Assembly: GCA_030685015.1 (NCBI GenBank)
Contig: JAUXWS010000011.1
Span: 1 to 9,403 of the forward strand
Direction: 5' to 3'
Source: a bacterium
Lineage (GTDB): Bacteria; CAIWAD01
DNA: 9,403 nt
Positions 1-9,006 of this stretch are shown here, one piece after another. Below the pieces are notes generated by a model. That model saw only the letters and a program-made list of their open reading frames with translations. It ran no database searches and had not been told where the DNA came from. A program made the position numbers and the translations under genes. Position 1 is the first letter of the stretch. Every line of letters starts with the position of its first letter.

Positions 1-356
1 CACCGCATGGAGGGTTGGGTCCAGAAGGTTCCCGTTCCGGACCAGAACCGTTGGCCAAGTGTGTTGATGTAGATGACGCGCCAGTACAGGTGCGCGTCTT
101 CCGGCAAGGTGATCGTGCTCCGATAGGTGGTTGTGCCCACCTGGGTTTCGATGAGCGGATGGGCCATGCCCGGGTTGTCCGCCACCTGCAGAACCCACGC
201 GTGGTATCCGTTCTTGGGCAGCCAGGCGAAGTGGGTCCCTTGCACTGGGACGAGGTGCTGTCCTGGCGTGGGCGTGATGAGCTCGGGCGCATCCATGGCG
301 GACGATCCCAGGGCGATGGCCAGCAGGAGCAGGGCGGTGTAGATGCTTGTCTTCAT
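1..356 (-). CDS. Secreted FnIII-like domain protein, 3' end beyond window
   Basis: The gene reads leftward from an ATG at 356 and is still open at base 1, giving 118 codons. The start is set by AAGGAG eight bases upstream. Residues 1-20 form a typical Sec signal peptide: KTS, a hydrophobic core of Ala/Leu/Ile, then GSSA before MDAPE, a likely signal peptidase I site. Residues 24-113 look like a fibronectin type III-like domain: 'PELITPTPGQ', then 'FAWLPKNG', an LQVA strand, a 'YWRVIY' strand and a closing 'GTFWT'. The same landmarks occur in the C-terminus of the C10 protease at 3288-4712, so the two probably share a domain. It follows the only real intergenic gap and may have its own promoter. 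The product is probably exported, to the periplasm or outside. Its function beyond protein or carbohydrate binding is unknown. Confidence 0.8.
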   Translation of the reverse strand, partial: MKTSIYTALLLLAIALGSSAMDAPELITPTPGQHLVPVQGTHFAWLPKNGYHAWVLQVADNPGMAHPLIETQVGTTTYRSTITLPEDAHLYWRVIYINTLGQRFWSGTGTFWTQPSMR

Positions 357-2893: not shown

Positions 2894-3291
2894 GAATCAG
2901 ACCCATCACCATCTGGCGCATTGTTGATTACTGGGCAGCCCAGCAGGCAGTTGCCGGCGGCCGTGTACTCGCGCAGCTCCTCGGGCGTCACCACCACCAG
3001 ATCCATGGTGCGGGCGTAGGTCCGCCAGCCGGGGCATGGCTCCAGCACGGCGCAGCCGTGGGCCGTCAGGTGGTCCACTTGTCGGGGCGGGTTGTCCTGG
3101 GACAGGGGCCAGGCCGCGAAGCGTGCCCAGCAGCCTGCGATGATGGCGGGGTTGACGGTGAATGGAATGTGCTGGCAATACTGCTTGGAGGATCCATCGG
3201 CAATCTTGGGGCCGGCGCATGGCACGCACATGTCCCCTGGGATCATGGATTTGGTGAACGCGCCCATCTCGGTATGGGTCAGGGGGGTCAT
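2890..3291 (-). CDS. Cysteine-rich 133-aa protein next to C10 protease
   Basis: The ATG at 3291 overlaps the protease stop (ATGA), with GGAGGAC about eight bases upstream. Eight cysteines are spread over 133 residues: 22, 25 (CVPC), 39, 54, 80, 86, 115 and 119. The central part contains 'IIAGCWARFAAWPL', and the tail is acidic ('DGDGSDS'). There is no signal peptide, so the cysteines more likely bind metal than form disulfides, but that is inference. In streptococci the gene after speB encodes the inhibitor Spi, which resembles the SpeB propeptide. I see no such resemblance here, so an inhibitor role is not supported by sequence. No family is recognised. Confidence 0.7.
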   Translation of the reverse strand: MTPLTHTEMGAFTKSMIPGDMCVPCAGPKIADGSSKQYCQHIPFTVNPAIIAGCWARFAAWPLSQDNPPRQVDHLTAHGCAVLEPCPGWRTYARTMDLVVVTPEELREYTAAGNCLLGCPVINNAPDGDGSDS

Positions 3292-4712
3292 GGGCGGGGT
3301 CCTCCGATACCGCCGGGTCCGGTTCCGATGATGGCCGACCGCTGCCCAGTGGTGAATTGGCTGGCCGGCGTGACAAAGGAGCGGCCGGTTCGATCGAACC
3401 AGATGAGGCGCCAGTGGTGGGTGGTCACGGGCGCCAGATTGCTCGCCGTGTAAGCCGTGTAGGTGCCCGGCAACTGGGCCTGCAGGACGATCTGCGTGAA
3501 CTGGGCCGTGAGCGAGAGCTGGACGCTCACGCGCGCCATGCCCTCGCGCGGCAGCCAGCGCAGCGTGACGGCATGGGGGGTGACGTCGCCGTCACCATCC
3601 AGCGGATGCAGCAGCTCCTCGCCCCGGGGCTCGATCCCCACGACCATGCCCTGCACGGCGGTAAAACTCTTCGAGCCCGGCGTGATGGCATCCAGCGTGT
3701 ACCAGCCGTTGTAGGTTCCGCTCCAGCCGAAGTTGAGGTGCTTGTAGCCGTCGGACCGCCAGCCATCCAGGTTGAAGGCATGCCCGCCGCTGGGCCCTTG
3801 TCCCCGGTGGACGATGGGCCGCCCGGCGCGGATCTCGTCCTCGATGAGGTTTTCCCACGTCTCCGGCGGGGTGGAGCTGCGCCACACCATGCGCGCCGTG
3901 TCCCGGTAGCGCAGGTAGAGGCGCAGGGCCGTGGCCACCATGGCGCTCTGGGCGCTTGAGCCGCGCGGCCCGTAGTTCATGCGCACGCCCACGCCCGCCA
4001 AGTAGAGCAGGCGCGCCGCCGCGGCCGTGGCGCCCACGGGGCGCATGTCCTTCCAGGCGGGCGTCTCGGCCAGCATGTCCAGCCCGATGCCGCCATAGAC
4101 CGGGTGCTCGTACCACGGGTGACCCTGCCCGCGCCAGGGGTGCTGGTGGTGGAACAGCACCTGCGCCATGGCCGTGGCCACACAGCCGGCGTAGGCCCGG
4201 CCGGCGGGCCCGGCAGGATCCACCGGGCAGTGGGCGTTCCAACCGGCCCCTTGGCCCCAGCGCGCGGCCAGGAGGGCCGGCAACTCCTCCACCTCATCCA
4301 GTGCCGCGCGGCCGCCCGGTTCCAGGAGCTCGTCCCACATGGCGCGGAAGGGGTTGTCCAGGGCGGCGCGGCCCTCGCCGGGGGCCTGGTGGATCTGGAG
4401 GATCTCGATGCCCCAGTCCGCCAGCATCTGGATCAGGCCGGGGGGCAGCCCTTCCCTGGTGGTGACGGGTGGGGGGAACTCGCCCGCGCGTGCCCAGCCC
4501 AGGATGGGCCGGGCCTGGCGGTCGCCGGCGACCAGGGCCCAGCCCGTTCCGCCCGTGACGATATGGATGCCTGGCTCGTCGTCGTCGAGGACGATGGTAT
4601 CCGCGACGACGACCTCCCGGGGATCGATGGCTTCGGCGCGGGCGCCGGCCACGCGCGTGAGCCAGGCAGCGCCGGCGGCGCGCGCCAGCTCAGGCGTGAT
4701 GGGTTCAATCAT
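3288..4712 (-). CDS. C10 family (streptopain-like) cysteine protease with FnIII-like tail
   Basis: The start is the ATG at 4712, overlapping the upstream stop, with AAGGAG eight bases before it; 474 aa. Residues 1-110 match the C10 propeptide pattern ('GWALVAGDRQARPILGW', then 'LPPGLIQMLADWGIEI'). The catalytic domain covers about 140-361. The nucleophile Cys177 is in 'GCVATAMAQ', the catalytic His311 is in 'GGHAFNLDGW', and Asn327/Trp330 lie in 'LNFGW', the family's last active-site block. A 'MNYGPRGSSAQS' segment matches SpeB's 'MDYGPSSGSAGS'. An FnIII-like domain follows at about 362-456 ('LRWLPREG', 'HWRLIWFD', 'SQFTTG'), then a Gly/Pro tail. All family residues are intact. Unlike usual members it has no signal peptide, so it is made in the cytoplasm. 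The target may be a host or phage protein, or it may be released on lysis. The propeptide suggests self-activation. Confidence 0.88.
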   Translation of the reverse strand: MIEPITPELARAAGAAWLTRVAGARAEAIDPREVVVADTIVLDDDEPGIHIVTGGTGWALVAGDRQARPILGWARAGEFPPPVTTREGLPPGLIQMLADWGIEILQIHQAPGEGRAALDNPFRAMWDELLEPGGRAALDEVEELPALLAARWGQGAGWNAHCPVDPAGPAGRAYAGCVATAMAQVLFHHQHPWRGQGHPWYEHPVYGGIGLDMLAETPAWKDMRPVGATAAAARLLYLAGVGVRMNYGPRGSSAQSAMVATALRLYLRYRDTARMVWRSSTPPETWENLIEDEIRAGRPIVHRGQGPSGGHAFNLDGWRSDGYKHLNFGWSGTYNGWYTLDAITPGSKSFTAVQGMVVGIEPRGEELLHPLDGDGDVTPHAVTLRWLPREGMARVSVQLSLTAQFTQIVLQAQLPGTYTAYTASNLAPVTTHHWRLIWFDRTGRSFVTPASQFTTGQRSAIIGTGPGGIGGPRP

Positions 4713-5239: not shown

Positions 5240-5252
5240 GGTCACTCTCCTT
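5233..5252 (-). promoter_or_regulatory. Ribosome site deciding the start at 5239
   Basis: On the minus strand the bases read AAGGAGAGTGACCATG. The AGGAG is seven bases from the ATG at 5239 but only one from the GTG at 5245, which favours the ATG even though the GTG would keep the 4-base overlap seen elsewhere. Confidence 0.55.
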
Positions 5253-5583
5253 CAGGTGGGCGTGTGTGGAACCGGCACAGGGCCATGGCCAGGGCCGAGT
5301 TCCACGTGGAGCTGTGGGGTGGCCGGTCCGCCAGTTGGCGCTCGGTGCAGGGATCCCAGAGGCGGATGCTGCCGCCGGTCTTCCCCGGGGCGGGCTGCTC
5401 CAGGATCTCCAGCTGTCGCAGGTGTGGCCGCAGGATGGAGACCAGATCTTCCAGGAGGCGCTCGGCATGGACGCGCGGGAGGTCGGGCAGCACGCGATCC
5501 GGATGGTCGGCCTGCCAGCGGATGATGAGGCAGCAGTCGAACGCCTGCTCCGCGGCGGGGGTAGTGGAGAGCGTCTGGGTCAT
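5242..5583 (-). CDS. Unknown 113-aa protein
   Basis: The ATG at 5583 overlaps the upstream stop (ATGA); the ribosome site is weak (GGCGGACC), so translation is probably coupled. Residues 35-62 form an amphipathic helix ('HAERLLEDLVSILRPHLRQL'). A 'GGSIRLWDP' strand follows, then a C-terminal 'STWNSALAMALCRFH' helix. Cysteines at 17, 18, 79 and 103 make no clear metal site. I recognise no family. It lies between the AP2-like protein and the zinc-ribbon/winged-helix protein. Its 'IRLWDP' and 'ALAMALCRF' segments resemble small phage proteins of unknown function that carry substrate-like boxes, but nothing specific can be claimed. Confidence 0.65.
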   Translation of the reverse strand: MTQTLSTTPAAEQAFDCCLIIRWQADHPDRVLPDLPRVHAERLLEDLVSILRPHLRQLEILEQPAPGKTGGSIRLWDPCTERQLADRPPHSSTWNSALAMALCRFHTRPPEGE

Positions 5584-5939
5584 GGCAGGTCCGCCGGGGC
5601 TTGGTCCAGGAGGCGGGCCATTTTGGCGGCCACCAGCTCGGGCGGATAGACTTCTAGCAACCACTCACCCACCTGATGGGCGACCAGGCGGTAGGCCTCG
5701 CGCTCGCCGTACTTGGTGGCGCTGCGGGCAATGACCAGGACCCGGCCGTTCACCTGCACGCGGCCCTCCCAGCGCTCGCGTGAGCCACGGTGCCCGGGCT
5801 GCCGGCTGGAGACACGGTACAGGTAGGCGCCCTCGGCAATCCGCGCTGCCAGCGTGTCCGGCGGCTTGCCCGCGGCCACACGTCGCAGGGCGCGCAGGGT
5901 ACGCATGGCTTGGGCACCGGGGCTTGTGCTGCGTGTCAT
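5580..5939 (-). CDS. AP2-like DNA-binding protein, 119 aa
   Basis: The ATG at 5939 overlaps the preceding stop (ATGA), with AGGAG about nine bases upstream. The core at residues 40-95 reads as strands 'YLYRVSSRQ', 'RWEGRVQVNGRVLVIARS', then 'KYGEREAYRLVAHQVGEWL'. This is the AP2/integrase-type DNA-binding pattern: a strand with Trp, a 'VNGR' turn, a basic strand, then the KYG-x-x-EA-x-x-LA helix seen in AP2 domains of phage HNH endonucleases, integrases and apicomplexan factors. The N-terminus (res 1-30) is basic. There is no HNH or recombinase domain. It overlaps the putative histone-fold gene and probably binds DNA alongside it. The assignment is by pattern only. Confidence 0.6.
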   Translation of the reverse strand: MTRSTSPGAQAMRTLRALRRVAAGKPPDTLAARIAEGAYLYRVSSRQPGHRGSRERWEGRVQVNGRVLVIARSATKYGEREAYRLVAHQVGEWLLEVYPPELVAAKMARLLDQAPADLP

Positions 5940-6244
5940 GGCCGTTTCTCCTGGCTGGTGGAGCGGACCATGTAGCGGGCCAGGACGGGCGTGAGGCGTG
6001 GCCGCTTCTCACCCGTGGCGCGGATCAGATCCAGGCGATTCTGCAGGTGCGCTTCCAGCTCGCTTGCCAGTGCCTGGAACGCGTACTCCGACACCTGGGT
6101 GAAGCCCGCCTTGGCGGCCAGCTCGCGCACCTTGCTGCGGTTGATGAGGAGGATGCGCGGCTTGCTGCGGGGCCGCCGCGTCTTCGGCGTCTCGCTGCCG
6201 GCCGGATCCAGTGGACCGAAGGGGTCGATGGCCGCGTTGGTCAT
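5936..6244 (-). CDS. Putative histone-fold protein, 102 aa
   Basis: The ATG at 6244 overlaps the methyltransferase stop (ATGA). Residues 1-30 are a Pro/Arg-rich tail ('KTRRPRSKPR'). Residues 31-92 fit a single histone fold: 'INRSKVRELAAKAG' (helix 1), loop 'FTQVS', a 27-residue helix 2 from 'EYAFQALASELEAHL' to 'RATGEK', loop 'RPRLT', then helix 3 'PVLARYM'. The 'KVREL', 'VSEYAFQAL' and R-x-T-before-helix-3 features match bacterial and archaeal histones, where the pattern is K/R-S-K-V-x-E, V-S-x-D-A/F and R-K-T-V-x-x-x-D. The usual Asp after R-x-T is Ala here. The molecule probably dimerises and binds DNA. It is directly coupled to the methyltransferase. The fold is inferred by pattern and not proven. 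Confidence 0.6.
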   Translation of the reverse strand: MTNAAIDPFGPLDPAGSETPKTRRPRSKPRILLINRSKVRELAAKAGFTQVSEYAFQALASELEAHLQNRLDLIRATGEKRPRLTPVLARYMVRSTSQEKRP

Positions 6245-7149
6245 GCCGCCCTCCGGATCGCGCGTAGGATGTCTGCGGCCACTGGCGGGACAACCGCGTT
6301 CCCAAGCAGATGGATGGCCAGCCGGCGCTGGGGTGGCAGCTGGTAGGAGGCGGGGAAACCCATCCCGGCACGCAGCTCGGCTGGGGTCAGCATGCGCATG
6401 TGGTCGTTGTCCACGAGGGCCCAACGATCCAGAGTGGTGATGGTGCCCAGGGGTAAGTCCAGGCTGCGGCCCGATTTCCAGCTTCCGTAGTAGCCCATGA
6501 GAAATCGAGGCCCCAACTCACGGCGCCCGCGCTCAATCCGTGCAAGGGTGGCCGCGGCGCGGCCTGGCTTGTTGACGACGCTCCAGCTTCCGCCTTCCGG
6601 ATCCAGGATGACTTTGGCCGGTACGTGTGGCTGGCGGCCAAGCTTCAGCTTCAGAGGAGAGCGGCTGCGCGTGGCCAGGATGAACAAACGGCGACGATGC
6701 TGGGGCACGCCGTGGTCGGCCGCATCTACCAAGTGGGGCGCCATTGCGTAGCCCAACGCCTCCAGGGCGGCGCGCCAGGCGCCGAACAGGACCCAGTTGG
6801 CGAACTCGGGCACGTTTTCCACCAGCACCATGGGCGGTCGGTGATACTCCGCGGCGGAGATGACGGCCCAGGCAGTGGACCGCGCCGCGTCGTGGTGCGG
6901 TCGGTCCTTCCCGCGTGCCCTGCTGTGGCCTTGGCATGCCGGGCTGGCCAGGAGGATGTCGTGGGCCGGCACCTGGGACCAATCTGCCTGGTGGAGATCC
7001 TGGCAGAGGTGCTGCGCCCCTGGGTGGTTGGCTGCATGGATCGCTACGGCGGCAGGCCAGTGGTTGCCTGCCCAGAGCACATGGACACCCGCCAGTTCTG
7101 CGCCAGTGGTGAATCCGCCGGCACCAGCGAAGAGGTCGATGGCTGTCAT
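6241..7149 (-). CDS. C5-cytosine DNA methyltransferase, 302 aa
   Basis: The ATG at 7149 overlaps the upstream stop (ATGA) and has GGAGG seven bases before it. It transfers a methyl group from S-adenosylmethionine to carbon 5 of cytosine in DNA. Motif I 'DLFAGAGGFTTG' is at 5-16 and motif IV 'SPACQGHS' at 69-76 with the catalytic Cys72. Motif VI 'VENVPEF' (Glu111) follows, motif VIII is Q150-x-R152-x-R154, motif IX is 'RMLTPAELRAGMGFP' at 252-266, and motif X 'LLGNAVVPPVA' is at 281-291. Between VIII and IX only about 95 residues remain for target recognition. The usual Pro-Cys is Ala-Cys here. No endonuclease lies beside it, so it is probably solitary, serving to mask phage DNA from host restriction or to mark it. 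Confidence 0.93.
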   Translation of the reverse strand: MTAIDLFAGAGGFTTGAELAGVHVLWAGNHWPAAVAIHAANHPGAQHLCQDLHQADWSQVPAHDILLASPACQGHSRARGKDRPHHDAARSTAWAVISAAEYHRPPMVLVENVPEFANWVLFGAWRAALEALGYAMAPHLVDAADHGVPQHRRRLFILATRSRSPLKLKLGRQPHVPAKVILDPEGGSWSVVNKPGRAAATLARIERGRRELGPRFLMGYYGSWKSGRSLDLPLGTITTLDRWALVDNDHMRMLTPAELRAGMGFPASYQLPPQRRLAIHLLGNAVVPPVAADILRAIRRAA

Positions 7150-7439
7150 TGCCTCGCCTCCCGGCCTGGCGCTCCCCATTTGCGTTCGCGCAGCCATTCG
7201 AGCAGGTCCAGCCCATCCGTCGGCCCCTGGCGCCACTCGGCGTCAACGCGGCGGCGCACACGGGCGCGGGCCCGCCGGGCCTTCACGTCCTCGCGCAGGG
7301 TCGTTGGCATGCCCGCCATGAGGCGTTCGGCAGCCGCGCGCATCTCCTTGTCGATGGCGATGAGGGTTTCAACGGTGCCTGTGTAGGGCCGTCCCATGAA
7401 GGAGTGGGCGGCCTCGTGGCGGCAGGTGCGCTCAGGCAT
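7146..7439 (-). CDS. Basic 97-aa protein with HEAAH motif, unknown
   Basis: The ATG at 7439 lies eight bases inside the preceding gene; the longer frame reaching 7640 is overlap with that gene. The protein starts 'MPERTC' and has HEAAH at residues 8-12, an HExxH pattern, but the surrounding sequence lacks the rest of a known metalloprotease fold, so no enzyme is claimed. Residues 22-45 form a helix ('TLIAIDKEMRAAAERLMAG') and 47-70 a strongly basic helix ('REDVKARRARARVRRRV'). The C-terminus has 'GLDLLEWLRERKWG'. It immediately precedes and overlaps the methyltransferase. The basic helix suggests nucleic-acid binding. Family unknown. Confidence 0.65.
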   Translation of the reverse strand: MPERTCRHEAAHSFMGRPYTGTVETLIAIDKEMRAAAERLMAGMPTTLREDVKARRARARVRRRVDAEWRQGPTDGLDLLEWLRERKWGAPGREARQ

Positions 7440-8007
7440 GGTGGGCCTTCGTGCACGCGCTGCAGAGGTCAGGTTCAACCCAGTAGCAGCCGCCGGCGCA
7501 GGCGTGGTGCTCCGTGCAGCCACAGACGCGGCAAGCCGGGCCAGCGACCTGCTGTGGGCGGCTGGGACGCTGCCTTCGCGCCTTGGGCATGCCTTGCCCG
7601 GGGTCTTCCTGCCCCTGGTGCTGGGCGCGCAGAAAGGCATGGATCTGGCCGGTGATGCGCTTGGCGGCGCTGGTCAGGTGCTTGTAGTCCACGGGGCCAT
7701 GGGTGTCGATGGCGCTCTTGACGGCGCCCCGCACCAAGCGGTCCAGCTCGGTCTTCGAGACGGTCCGACAGCGCAGGGCCACCAGGTGCGGCAGTTCGTC
7801 CAGCGGCGTGGTGCGCGGGACGTTTAGGGCATCCATGACGGCGGCCAGGATCTCCGCGTAGGTCGGGCCGGACCTGCCGGTCTTGGTCGCAGGGCGTGGG
7901 CAGGCGCGGGACTGCTGCTCCCAGGCTTGCTGCTGGACCTGCCCCACGAGCAGGCTGTCGTGGGGTGTGAGGTCGCTCCGTCGCCGGGCAGGCGATTGGG
8001 GTTTCAC
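7432..8007 (-). CDS. Protein with C-terminal seven-cysteine cluster, 191 aa
   Basis: It starts with GTG at 8007, overlapping the preceding stop as GTGA, behind a good GGAGGG five bases away. Residues 45-125 are helical, with 'PTYAEILAAVMDALNV', 'LPHLVALRCRTVSKTELDRL' and 'DYKHLTSAAKRITGQ'. After a Gln/Arg-rich linker (130-155) comes a cysteine cluster: 159, 162, 164, 170, 174, 182 and 185 ('CRVCGC' ... 'CAGGCYWVEPDLCSAC'). This compact C-x2-C-x-C-x5-C-x3-C-x7-C-x2-C block with 'WVEPDLCSAC' is a recurring module at the ends of phage and plasmid proteins and most likely binds zinc. The helical part matches no family I can name. Confidence 0.72.
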   Translation of the reverse strand: MKPQSPARRRSDLTPHDSLLVGQVQQQAWEQQSRACPRPATKTGRSGPTYAEILAAVMDALNVPRTTPLDELPHLVALRCRTVSKTELDRLVRGAVKSAIDTHGPVDYKHLTSAAKRITGQIHAFLRAQHQGQEDPGQGMPKARRQRPSRPQQVAGPACRVCGCTEHHACAGGCYWVEPDLCSACTKAHHA

Positions 8008-8333
8008 AAGGCCCTCCAGTCTCGTTTGGGGCGTCGCTTATCCCGGGCCAGGACGACCCGGGGGTCATTGGCGGGGAGGGTACGCGCGCGTTTGCCCTGG
8101 GCGAGCAGCGCGCAAGGCTTCCAGTCGATGACCAGTCCATTGCTGCCATCCGGCCAGACCTTCACCCGGCAGGTGTAGCGGCCCAGGTTGGGCAGCGACA
8201 GGAACTCGTCCGCGTCCAGCTCGTCCAGCTGGTACCGCAGGACGTCCAGCACGTCGCGGACGGCGCGCTCGGCCTCCAGGACCGTGTAGCCGTGCATGGC
8301 GCGCAGGTGGTCGATGAGGATGCGGCTGGTCAT
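8004..8333 (-). CDS. HU/IHF-like DNA-binding protein, 109 aa, short arm
   Basis: The start is the ATG at 8333, one base after the preceding stop; a longer in-frame start would run back over the upstream gene. The order matches HU/IHF: a helix 'LRAMHGYTVLEAERAVRDVL' (10-29) like 'GLSKAEAERAL', a second helix 'LRYQLDELDADEF', then 'LSLPNLGRYTCRVKVW' (46-60), equivalent to 'LPGFGTF-x-V-x', and 'VIDWKPCALLAQGKRAR' (68-84), like the end 'VPAFKPGKALK'. The beta arm is reduced to about 'PDGSNG' and lacks the Arg-Asn-Pro tip that intercalates in HU. A basic 25-residue tail follows. It probably binds DNA as a dimer. Confident in the family resemblance, less so in function because of the missing tip. 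Confidence 0.58.
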   Translation of the reverse strand: MTSRILIDHLRAMHGYTVLEAERAVRDVLDVLRYQLDELDADEFLSLPNLGRYTCRVKVWPDGSNGLVIDWKPCALLAQGKRARTLPANDPRVVLARDKRRPKRDWRAL

Positions 8334-8334
8334 G

Positions 8335-9006
8335 TCAAGCGTTCCCGAAGGGGTCGTCTTCTTCGGGGTCGTCGATGATCGAGTCCAGGTTCTCACCCTC
8401 TCCTTCGTTTTCCTGATGAAGCCACCCGCCATGTATCAGCCCACCCGCGCCCGCGGTGGAATCCGCCGGCGACGCGGTCTGCGTTTCGGCCGTGGTCGCG
8501 CACGGGGTCGGCTGCGGGATCTGCGGGGCCTCGCCCTTGCCGGTCCAGACCAGGGTCACGCGACCGGTCAGCTCGTCGAAGTCGCCTCGCCAAGGCATCT
8601 CATGGGCGAAGAGGGGCCAGCGGCCGCGCAGGCCGTTCAGGTCTTCCACCGGCTGCTTGAGCTTCTTGAGCTGGCTCTTCACCAGGGCAATGGTGACCTG
8701 CAGCTTGAGCAGGTCGCGCGTCTTCTCGGCGGACTCCAGGCCGGTCCGCGCCTCCTCGGCCTCGCGCAGGAGGCCTCCGAAGAAGCGGCTCCAGTAGACG
8801 CAGCTGGTCATCTCCTGCTGCTGTTGCAGCTCCTGCACCAGGCGATCGTAGGCCGTGCAGTCGGAGGTGGTGGGTCCGCCCTTGCCCTTCGGCTTGGACT
8901 CCTTCTCCGCGCCGCCCGTCTGCGCGGACTCCTGCTCCGTCGTGGCGGACATCTCGGGGTTCAGCGGGACCACGTTGTCCACGGTGGTCTTCTTCGCGCG
9001 TGCCAT
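8335..9006 (-). CDS. 223-aa protein with acidic SSB-like tail, unknown
   Basis: The ATG at 9006 has AAGAGGAG about five bases upstream. Residues 1-48 are a Thr/Lys/Glu-rich disordered segment. Residues 52-125 form helices ('YDRLVQELQQQQEM', 'LREAEEARTGLE', 'ALVKSQLKKLKQPVEDL'), followed by a small strand region 'DELTGRVTLVWTG'. A Thr/Ala/Pro linker leads to the final 'DSIIDDPEEDDPFGNA'. That acidic end with DPF resembles the C-terminal tail (DDDIPF) that SSB proteins use to recruit partners, though here it is not at the very end. No OB fold is visible, so I do not call it an SSB. One base separates it from the HU-like gene, so the two are coupled. Confidence 0.68.
   Translation of the reverse strand: MARAKKTTVDNVVPLNPEMSATTEQESAQTGGAEKESKPKGKGGPTTSDCTAYDRLVQELQQQQEMTSCVYWSRFFGGLLREAEEARTGLESAEKTRDLLKLQVTIALVKSQLKKLKQPVEDLNGLRGRWPLFAHEMPWRGDFDELTGRVTLVWTGKGEAPQIPQPTPCATTAETQTASPADSTAGAGGLIHGGWLHQENEGEGENLDSIIDDPEEDDPFGNA

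Follow-up and report, generated by a model that had tools for sequence, protein, structure and literature searches.

Does a short gene lying beside a DNA methyltransferase gene encode a histone-type DNA-binding protein, and what would such a protein do there? The question is raised by the gene P0002 (5936 to 6244, minus strand) in a 9403-bp stretch of DNA, referred to here as the window, which is the entire contig C11 of a 3.6-Mb bacterial genome (G000). Bacteria and their phages rarely carry histone folds, which were recognised there only recently. We hold, with moderate confidence, that P0002 is a divergent single histone-fold protein of the early region of a temperate tailed phage, most likely a DNA-binding homodimer of the nucleoid type, and that it belongs to a cassette subject to gain and loss. 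Phage-encoded histone folds are already known, and P0002 differs from them in its divergence and domain layout. The gene and the parts of its product are as follows.

5936..6244, minus strand (6244 to 5936): P0002, histone-fold protein of 102 amino acids (aa), sequence MTNAAIDPFGPLDPAGSETPKTRRPRSKPRILLINRSKVRELAAKAGFTQVSEYAFQALASELEAHLQNRLDLIRATGEKRPRLTPVLARYMVRSTSQEKRP
P0002 by residue: tail 1-30; helix 1 36-45; loop 1 46-52; helix 2 53-77; loop 2 78-85; helix 3 from 86

P0002 is a real gene, and it is taken as such because a Shine-Dalgarno-like site (GGAGGG) lies upstream of its ATG, both of its ends overlap the neighbouring genes by a 4-bp ATGA, and its codon usage fits its own frame (score +27.1, while none of the other five frames exceeds -12.5, trained on the other genes of the window). 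It occupies exactly the gap between its two neighbours. A spurious reading frame, to which the lack of a homologue in any collection searched might point, is highly improbable in the face of this start site, the overlaps, the codon score and the exact fit. The first-pass annotation of this DNA had described a 102-aa protein with a five-residue loop and an RLT motif, and the quoted residues are indeed found on the minus strand: the helix-1 segment NRSKVRELAAKAG covers residues 35-47, the loop FTQVS residues 48-52, a long helix follows, and RLT stands at 83-85. The long helix was correctly noticed; its length was not, being about 25 residues (53-77 in the AlphaFold2 model) and not 27. The protein has an isoelectric point of 10.9, with 19 Lys/Arg against 10 Asp/Glu, and the N-terminal tail that had been described as basic is so at residues 20-30 only.

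The similarity of P0002 to histones is beyond chance. A histone set was assembled independently of P0002, starting from a bacterial histone of genome G033 (via PF00808), followed by HBb, HLp and one FtF structure, and then by 84 loci from viral and genome contigs; the resulting alpha3 histone hidden Markov model (HMM) comprises 86 histones. Against this model P0002 scored 10.0 bits in a 48-residue match without gaps (residues 33-80). It ranked second of 11,361 sequences (phage loci plus the window), the higher phage match covering 34 residues only, and second of 20,001 when ranked against its own shuffles. By hhalign, the 86-histone set gave P0002 a score of 24.1 (P 3.5e-4), and controls reached at most 16.2 (400 shuffles) and 19.2 (800 phage open reading frames, ORFs). 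A smaller and more diverse bacterial and archaeal profile, built without P0002, gave 29.6 (probability 75.4, P 2.4e-5); P0002 was picked for its histone look, so this P value does not come from a blind draw, and the margin is still comfortable given the window's roughly 20 genes. The best controls on that profile were 19.6 in 300 shuffles and 19.3 in 883 phage proteins.

For calibration of the same profile, eukaryotic query sequences scored 26.0 (H2A), 33.8 (NF-YB) and 36.7 (H4), and prokaryotic histones, each left out in turn, scored 67-107. Because its score lies among H2A, NF-YB and H4, P0002 is regarded as a remote member of the fold and not as a close alpha3 histone, and its distance from prokaryotic histones appears to be about that of eukaryotic histone-fold proteins. 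The single histone fold proposed in the first-pass annotation is therefore upheld by a profile score above both the shuffle and the phage controls, together with consistent fold matches, and its attribution to the Bdellovibrio type is not: none of the alpha3 histones tested is nearly as divergent as P0002, which also lacks the aspartate of RxTxxxD and the FtF tetramer residues. The same position of the score, away from the prokaryotic DNA-packing histones, favours the main rival, in which P0002 has a histone fold without being a nucleoid protein. It would then be an NF-YB/TAF-like dimerisation module that joins a partner (the methylase, the adjacent gene product g5580 or a host protein) and acts as a regulator, targeting subunit or counter-defence factor. 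We consider this rather unlikely, and no interaction is known for P0002.

The predicted fold was examined in two models. AlphaFold2 without an alignment gave helices at 36-45, 53-77 and 86-96 for the whole protein, with a predicted local distance difference test (pLDDT) of 65 and a predicted template modelling score (pTM) of 0.37. For the core (residues 27-100) the first two helices were repeated and helix 3 was placed at 86-91 (pLDDT 63, pTM 0.42). The helices in these low-confidence monomeric models follow a short-long-short order, with lengths of 10, 25 and 6-11, and neither model contains a strand. In Foldseek searches of the PDB, histone folds made up 19 of the 20 matches of the full model and 20 of the 21 of the core model, nearly all at E >1. 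They include H3, H4 and TAF6/TAF9, and the Bdellovibrio histone for the full model; TAF6/TAF9 would also suit a partner-binding module. VIA-align placed 8fvx first for the full model (Z 4.0, rmsd 6.4, 59 aligned) and CENP-A/H4 for the core (Z 3.8), and a search of viral models put two Marseillevirus histones on top, at E>2. The Z values prove nothing alone, and the uniform list of matches agrees, if weakly, with the profile result. Thus, the histone-fold reading of P0002 is supported by the sequence profile and, more weakly, by the predicted fold.

Could P0002 be another small helical DNA-binding protein, for example a ribbon-helix-helix (RHH) protein of the phage repressor kind, with RILLINR as the strand followed by two helices? 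The succession RILLINR-helix-turn-helix can be read by eye in this way, and the models are of low confidence. However, no strand was modelled, 39 of the 41 PDB fold matches are histone folds, and a helix 2 modelled at 25 residues is long for an RHH protein. Furthermore, Pfam contained no RHH family for P0002 at E 10, a small RHH profile gave it 13.3 (P 0.05), and the RHH proteins CopG, Arc and NikR reached only 9-12 on the bacterial and archaeal histone profile. We consider this explanation distinctly unlikely.

The histone-fold reading can be followed to single residues. In HLp, S14, K15 and K17 contact DNA, and V16, L35, L39 and L47 are dimer residues (PMC12701072). In an alignment read by hand, these contacts correspond to S37, K38 and R40 of P0002, and the dimer core corresponds to V39, L59, L63 and L71. 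The helix-1 contacts kept in this alignment, like the small size and basic character of the protein, speak against a purely partner-binding module, whereas the loss of some conserved DNA-contact and clamp residues would favour it. Two bacterial alpha3 histones, HBb/Bd0055 from Bdellovibrio (8fvx, 8cmp) and HLp from Leptospira (9qt0), share with P0002 the SKV(K/R) start of helix 1, the length of loop 1, VS/TS ahead of helix 2, the dimer-core leucines and perhaps a short helix 2, at an identity of just 22-25%. Unlike them, P0002 has a longer loop 2, a 30-residue N-terminal tail and a prophage location.

In alpha3 histones, helix 2 falls 4-5 residues short of that of nucleosomal histones and helix 3 is truncated to 3-4 residues (Schwab 2024, PMC11390915). 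Helix 3 of P0002 has 6 residues in one model and 11 in the other, both at low pLDDT. As for helix 2, a 4-residue gap appears there when P0002 is aligned to the archaeal profile by hhalign, and the weak model ends the helix at 77; a register to HMfB without any gap is possible too. The RLT of P0002 sits four residues beyond the RKT of HBb, and the gap-free register to the longer HMfB helix 2 would align it with RKT. The archaeal nucleosomal histones HMfA/HMfB resemble P0002 in AGxxxVS at the junction of helix 1 and loop 1, in ALA..LE in helix 2 and, when helix 2 is taken in full, in the 33 residues from Ser to the Thr of RxT. They differ in that the hhalign alignment (P 0.0019) sets its gap in helix 2, and in having the RxTxxxD aspartate.

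Published phage histones combine an N-terminal fold with a C-terminal tetramerisation helix (Schwab et al. 2024, PMC11390915). Like them, P0002 is encoded by a phage, has a single histone fold and lacks a full RxTxxxD motif; unlike them, it has its fold at the C-terminus, with helix 3 ending near residue 96 of 102 and about 6 residues after the fold. Polyvalent proteins of phages and plasmids also have a histone fold on the list of their rare domains (PMC5512222). The polyvalent proteins of phages and conjugative elements share the mobile-element setting, but they are large and multidomain, whereas P0002 is a small single-domain protein. In addition, clear short alpha3-type histones of 62-69 aa, without a C-terminal domain, were found on four IMG/VR contigs (L013:7980-8180, L012:7968-8174, and L014 and L015 near 8000); these too are without the published phage-histone layout. 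The L013 gene is surrounded by exonuclease, Sak4-like, SSB and primase genes, a phage replication module. A scan of the four contigs for phrog_2 (terminase) gave none. Such short histones in another phage replication module also count in favour of the reading preferred here for P0002.

Several results weigh against the histone-fold reading. P0002 had no match in Pfam even at E 10, hence none to PF00808, and no archaeal-histone match in NCBIfam at E 10. PHROGs gave only 0.34 over 23 residues, and a PDB sequence search gave nothing. No acceptable homologue was found in IMG/VR, GTDB genomes, INPHARED phages, plasmids or 98 genomes, where the two contig scans used exact short peptides that distant relatives would escape. 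The models are of low confidence (pLDDT 63-65, Z at most 4.0, nearly all Foldseek E >1), and the profile match ends at residue 81, short of helix 3. Counterparts of HLp K21, of the dimer residues I20 and L42 and of the R-D clamp are missing, as is the RxTxxxD aspartate in either register. Where FtF tetramers have R49, N53 and R55 in HLp numbering (PMC12701072), P0002 has L73, T77 and E79.

The best NCBIfam match of P0002 was a weak one to a sugar transferase (0.06), and PADLOC gave nothing. Weak matches in C25 of the same genome and in G080, G025 and G010 (E 0.008-0.11) were rejected, three having in-frame stops and the fourth lying inside a 762-aa frame. No relatives of P0002 were found on the 80 viral contigs that bear the closest methylases; a match to the histone HMM on L100 spans just 34 residues. 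Since no convincing histone turned up in the host genome (best E 0.91) or in its nearest relatives, recent copying of a host histone is not supported.

We hypothesize that P0002 homodimerises via the long helix 2 in a histone handshake, and that the dimer would bind double-stranded DNA with no sequence specificity. Contact with DNA is predicted at S37, K38 and R40, where helix 1 starts, at K80, R81 and R83 in the basic loop 2, and along the basic tail stretch 20-30. On phage DNA the protein would serve as a small protein of the nucleoid type, with early or middle expression. Its gene is gained or lost within a three-gene cassette together with a C5 methylase and g5580. The cassette and its flanks are as follows.

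5584..7149, minus strand: three-gene cassette of methylase, histone-fold gene and g5580, which the sister prophage on C100 lacks
6241..7149, minus strand: C5-cytosine DNA methyltransferase, 302 aa, cassette gene 1 (PF00145 E 2.4e-43, phrog_116 4e-77)
5580..5939, minus strand: g5580, 119 aa, cassette gene 3, no family found
7146..7439, minus strand: flanking gene g7146, conserved in C100 (E 1.3e-26)
5242..5583, minus strand: flanking gene g5242, conserved in C100 (E 6.9e-33)

The adjoining DNA methyltransferase had been correctly recognised and is of the C5 type (149.2 bits to PF00145, above the cut-off of 22); its close relatives occur on at least 80 viral contigs. In its motif IV, SPACQGHS, the catalytic Cys is preceded by Ala and not by the usual Pro. 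The first-pass annotation had taken the ATGA overlap to tie P0002 to methylated DNA. This overlap carries little weight, because 12 of the 19 junctions are of this kind, the norm in this operon. A better argument for linkage is that methylase, P0002 and g5580 are missing as a unit from C100. There the order g9035, g8335, HU-like gene, g7432, g7146, g5242, g4709, C10 peptidase, g2372, g2890 is kept and g7146 joins g5242 directly by ATGA, at the place where the window holds the three genes. The simplest reading is that they may have been gained or lost together in one event. The related IMG/VR contig L205 has no match to P0002 or to 8335-9006; it starts inside the peptidase gene and is therefore uninformative on the cassette.

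A shared cassette would also accommodate a partner-binding P0002. On the other hand, g5580, which had no family in Pfam, PHROGs, NCBIfam or PADLOC, has a 48% identical copy on C87, and no P0002 relative was found on the C87 stretch examined. A long shot, in our estimate, is that the cassette is a portable phage chromatin module, in which P0002, the methylase and g5580 jointly give methylated and coated phage DNA with methylation-dependent binding or positioning; if so, it could shield phage DNA from host nucleases or set the lysis-lysogeny state. With P0002 and a methylase in one block, the question whether phages pair DNA modification with proteins that package DNA can be put to a concrete test. 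Moreover, a prophage histone-fold protein that escapes the curated libraries consulted here and departs from the published phage-histone layout suggests that phages hold more histone-like proteins than have been counted.

Phage encoding, as first annotated, is borne out by the sister prophages. The same genome has segments related to the window prophage on C4, C58 and C100, and a related late region on C87. An integrase (phrog_1 2.8e-58), a primase and DNA helicases are encoded on C100, which also has terminase- and portal-like ORFs similar to the terminase large subunit and the portal of C87. From the gene order common with C100, and not from structural genes on C11, we infer that the window belongs to a prophage early region. 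Four related segments (C4, C11, C58, C100) and the C87 late region within one genome allow gene-content swaps to be compared directly. A further gene of this region had been noted as a coexisting HU-like gene.

8004..8333, minus strand: weakly HU/IHF-like protein, present in four of four related prophage segments

This too was supported, though below threshold: the window copy gave 15.5 bits to PF00216 (E 0.021) and the C4 copy 17.3 bits (E 0.0056), neither reaching the cut-off of 22.4, and a profile of the four prophage copies placed HU structures first (E 0.0053 and 0.01). By this similarity the product would be at most a remote HU/IHF relative.

Three other proteins of the prophage are recorded here. 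The gene at 3288-4712 (minus strand), within the prophage operon, encodes a member of the Peptidase C10 family (PF01640 2.9e-47) that seems to have a propeptide of the inhibitor type; copies are found on C100 and, in part, on C4 and on an IMG/VR contig at 93% identity. At 1-356 (minus strand) lies a small protein that begins like a signal peptide and looks rich in beta structure; it recurs in related prophages (L195:5825-6334, L196:9835-10209, L205:451-819). Finally, the product of 7432-8007 (minus strand) carries at about residues 158-187 a cysteine-rich C-terminal motif with 50-83% identity to otherwise unrelated proteins of many phages.
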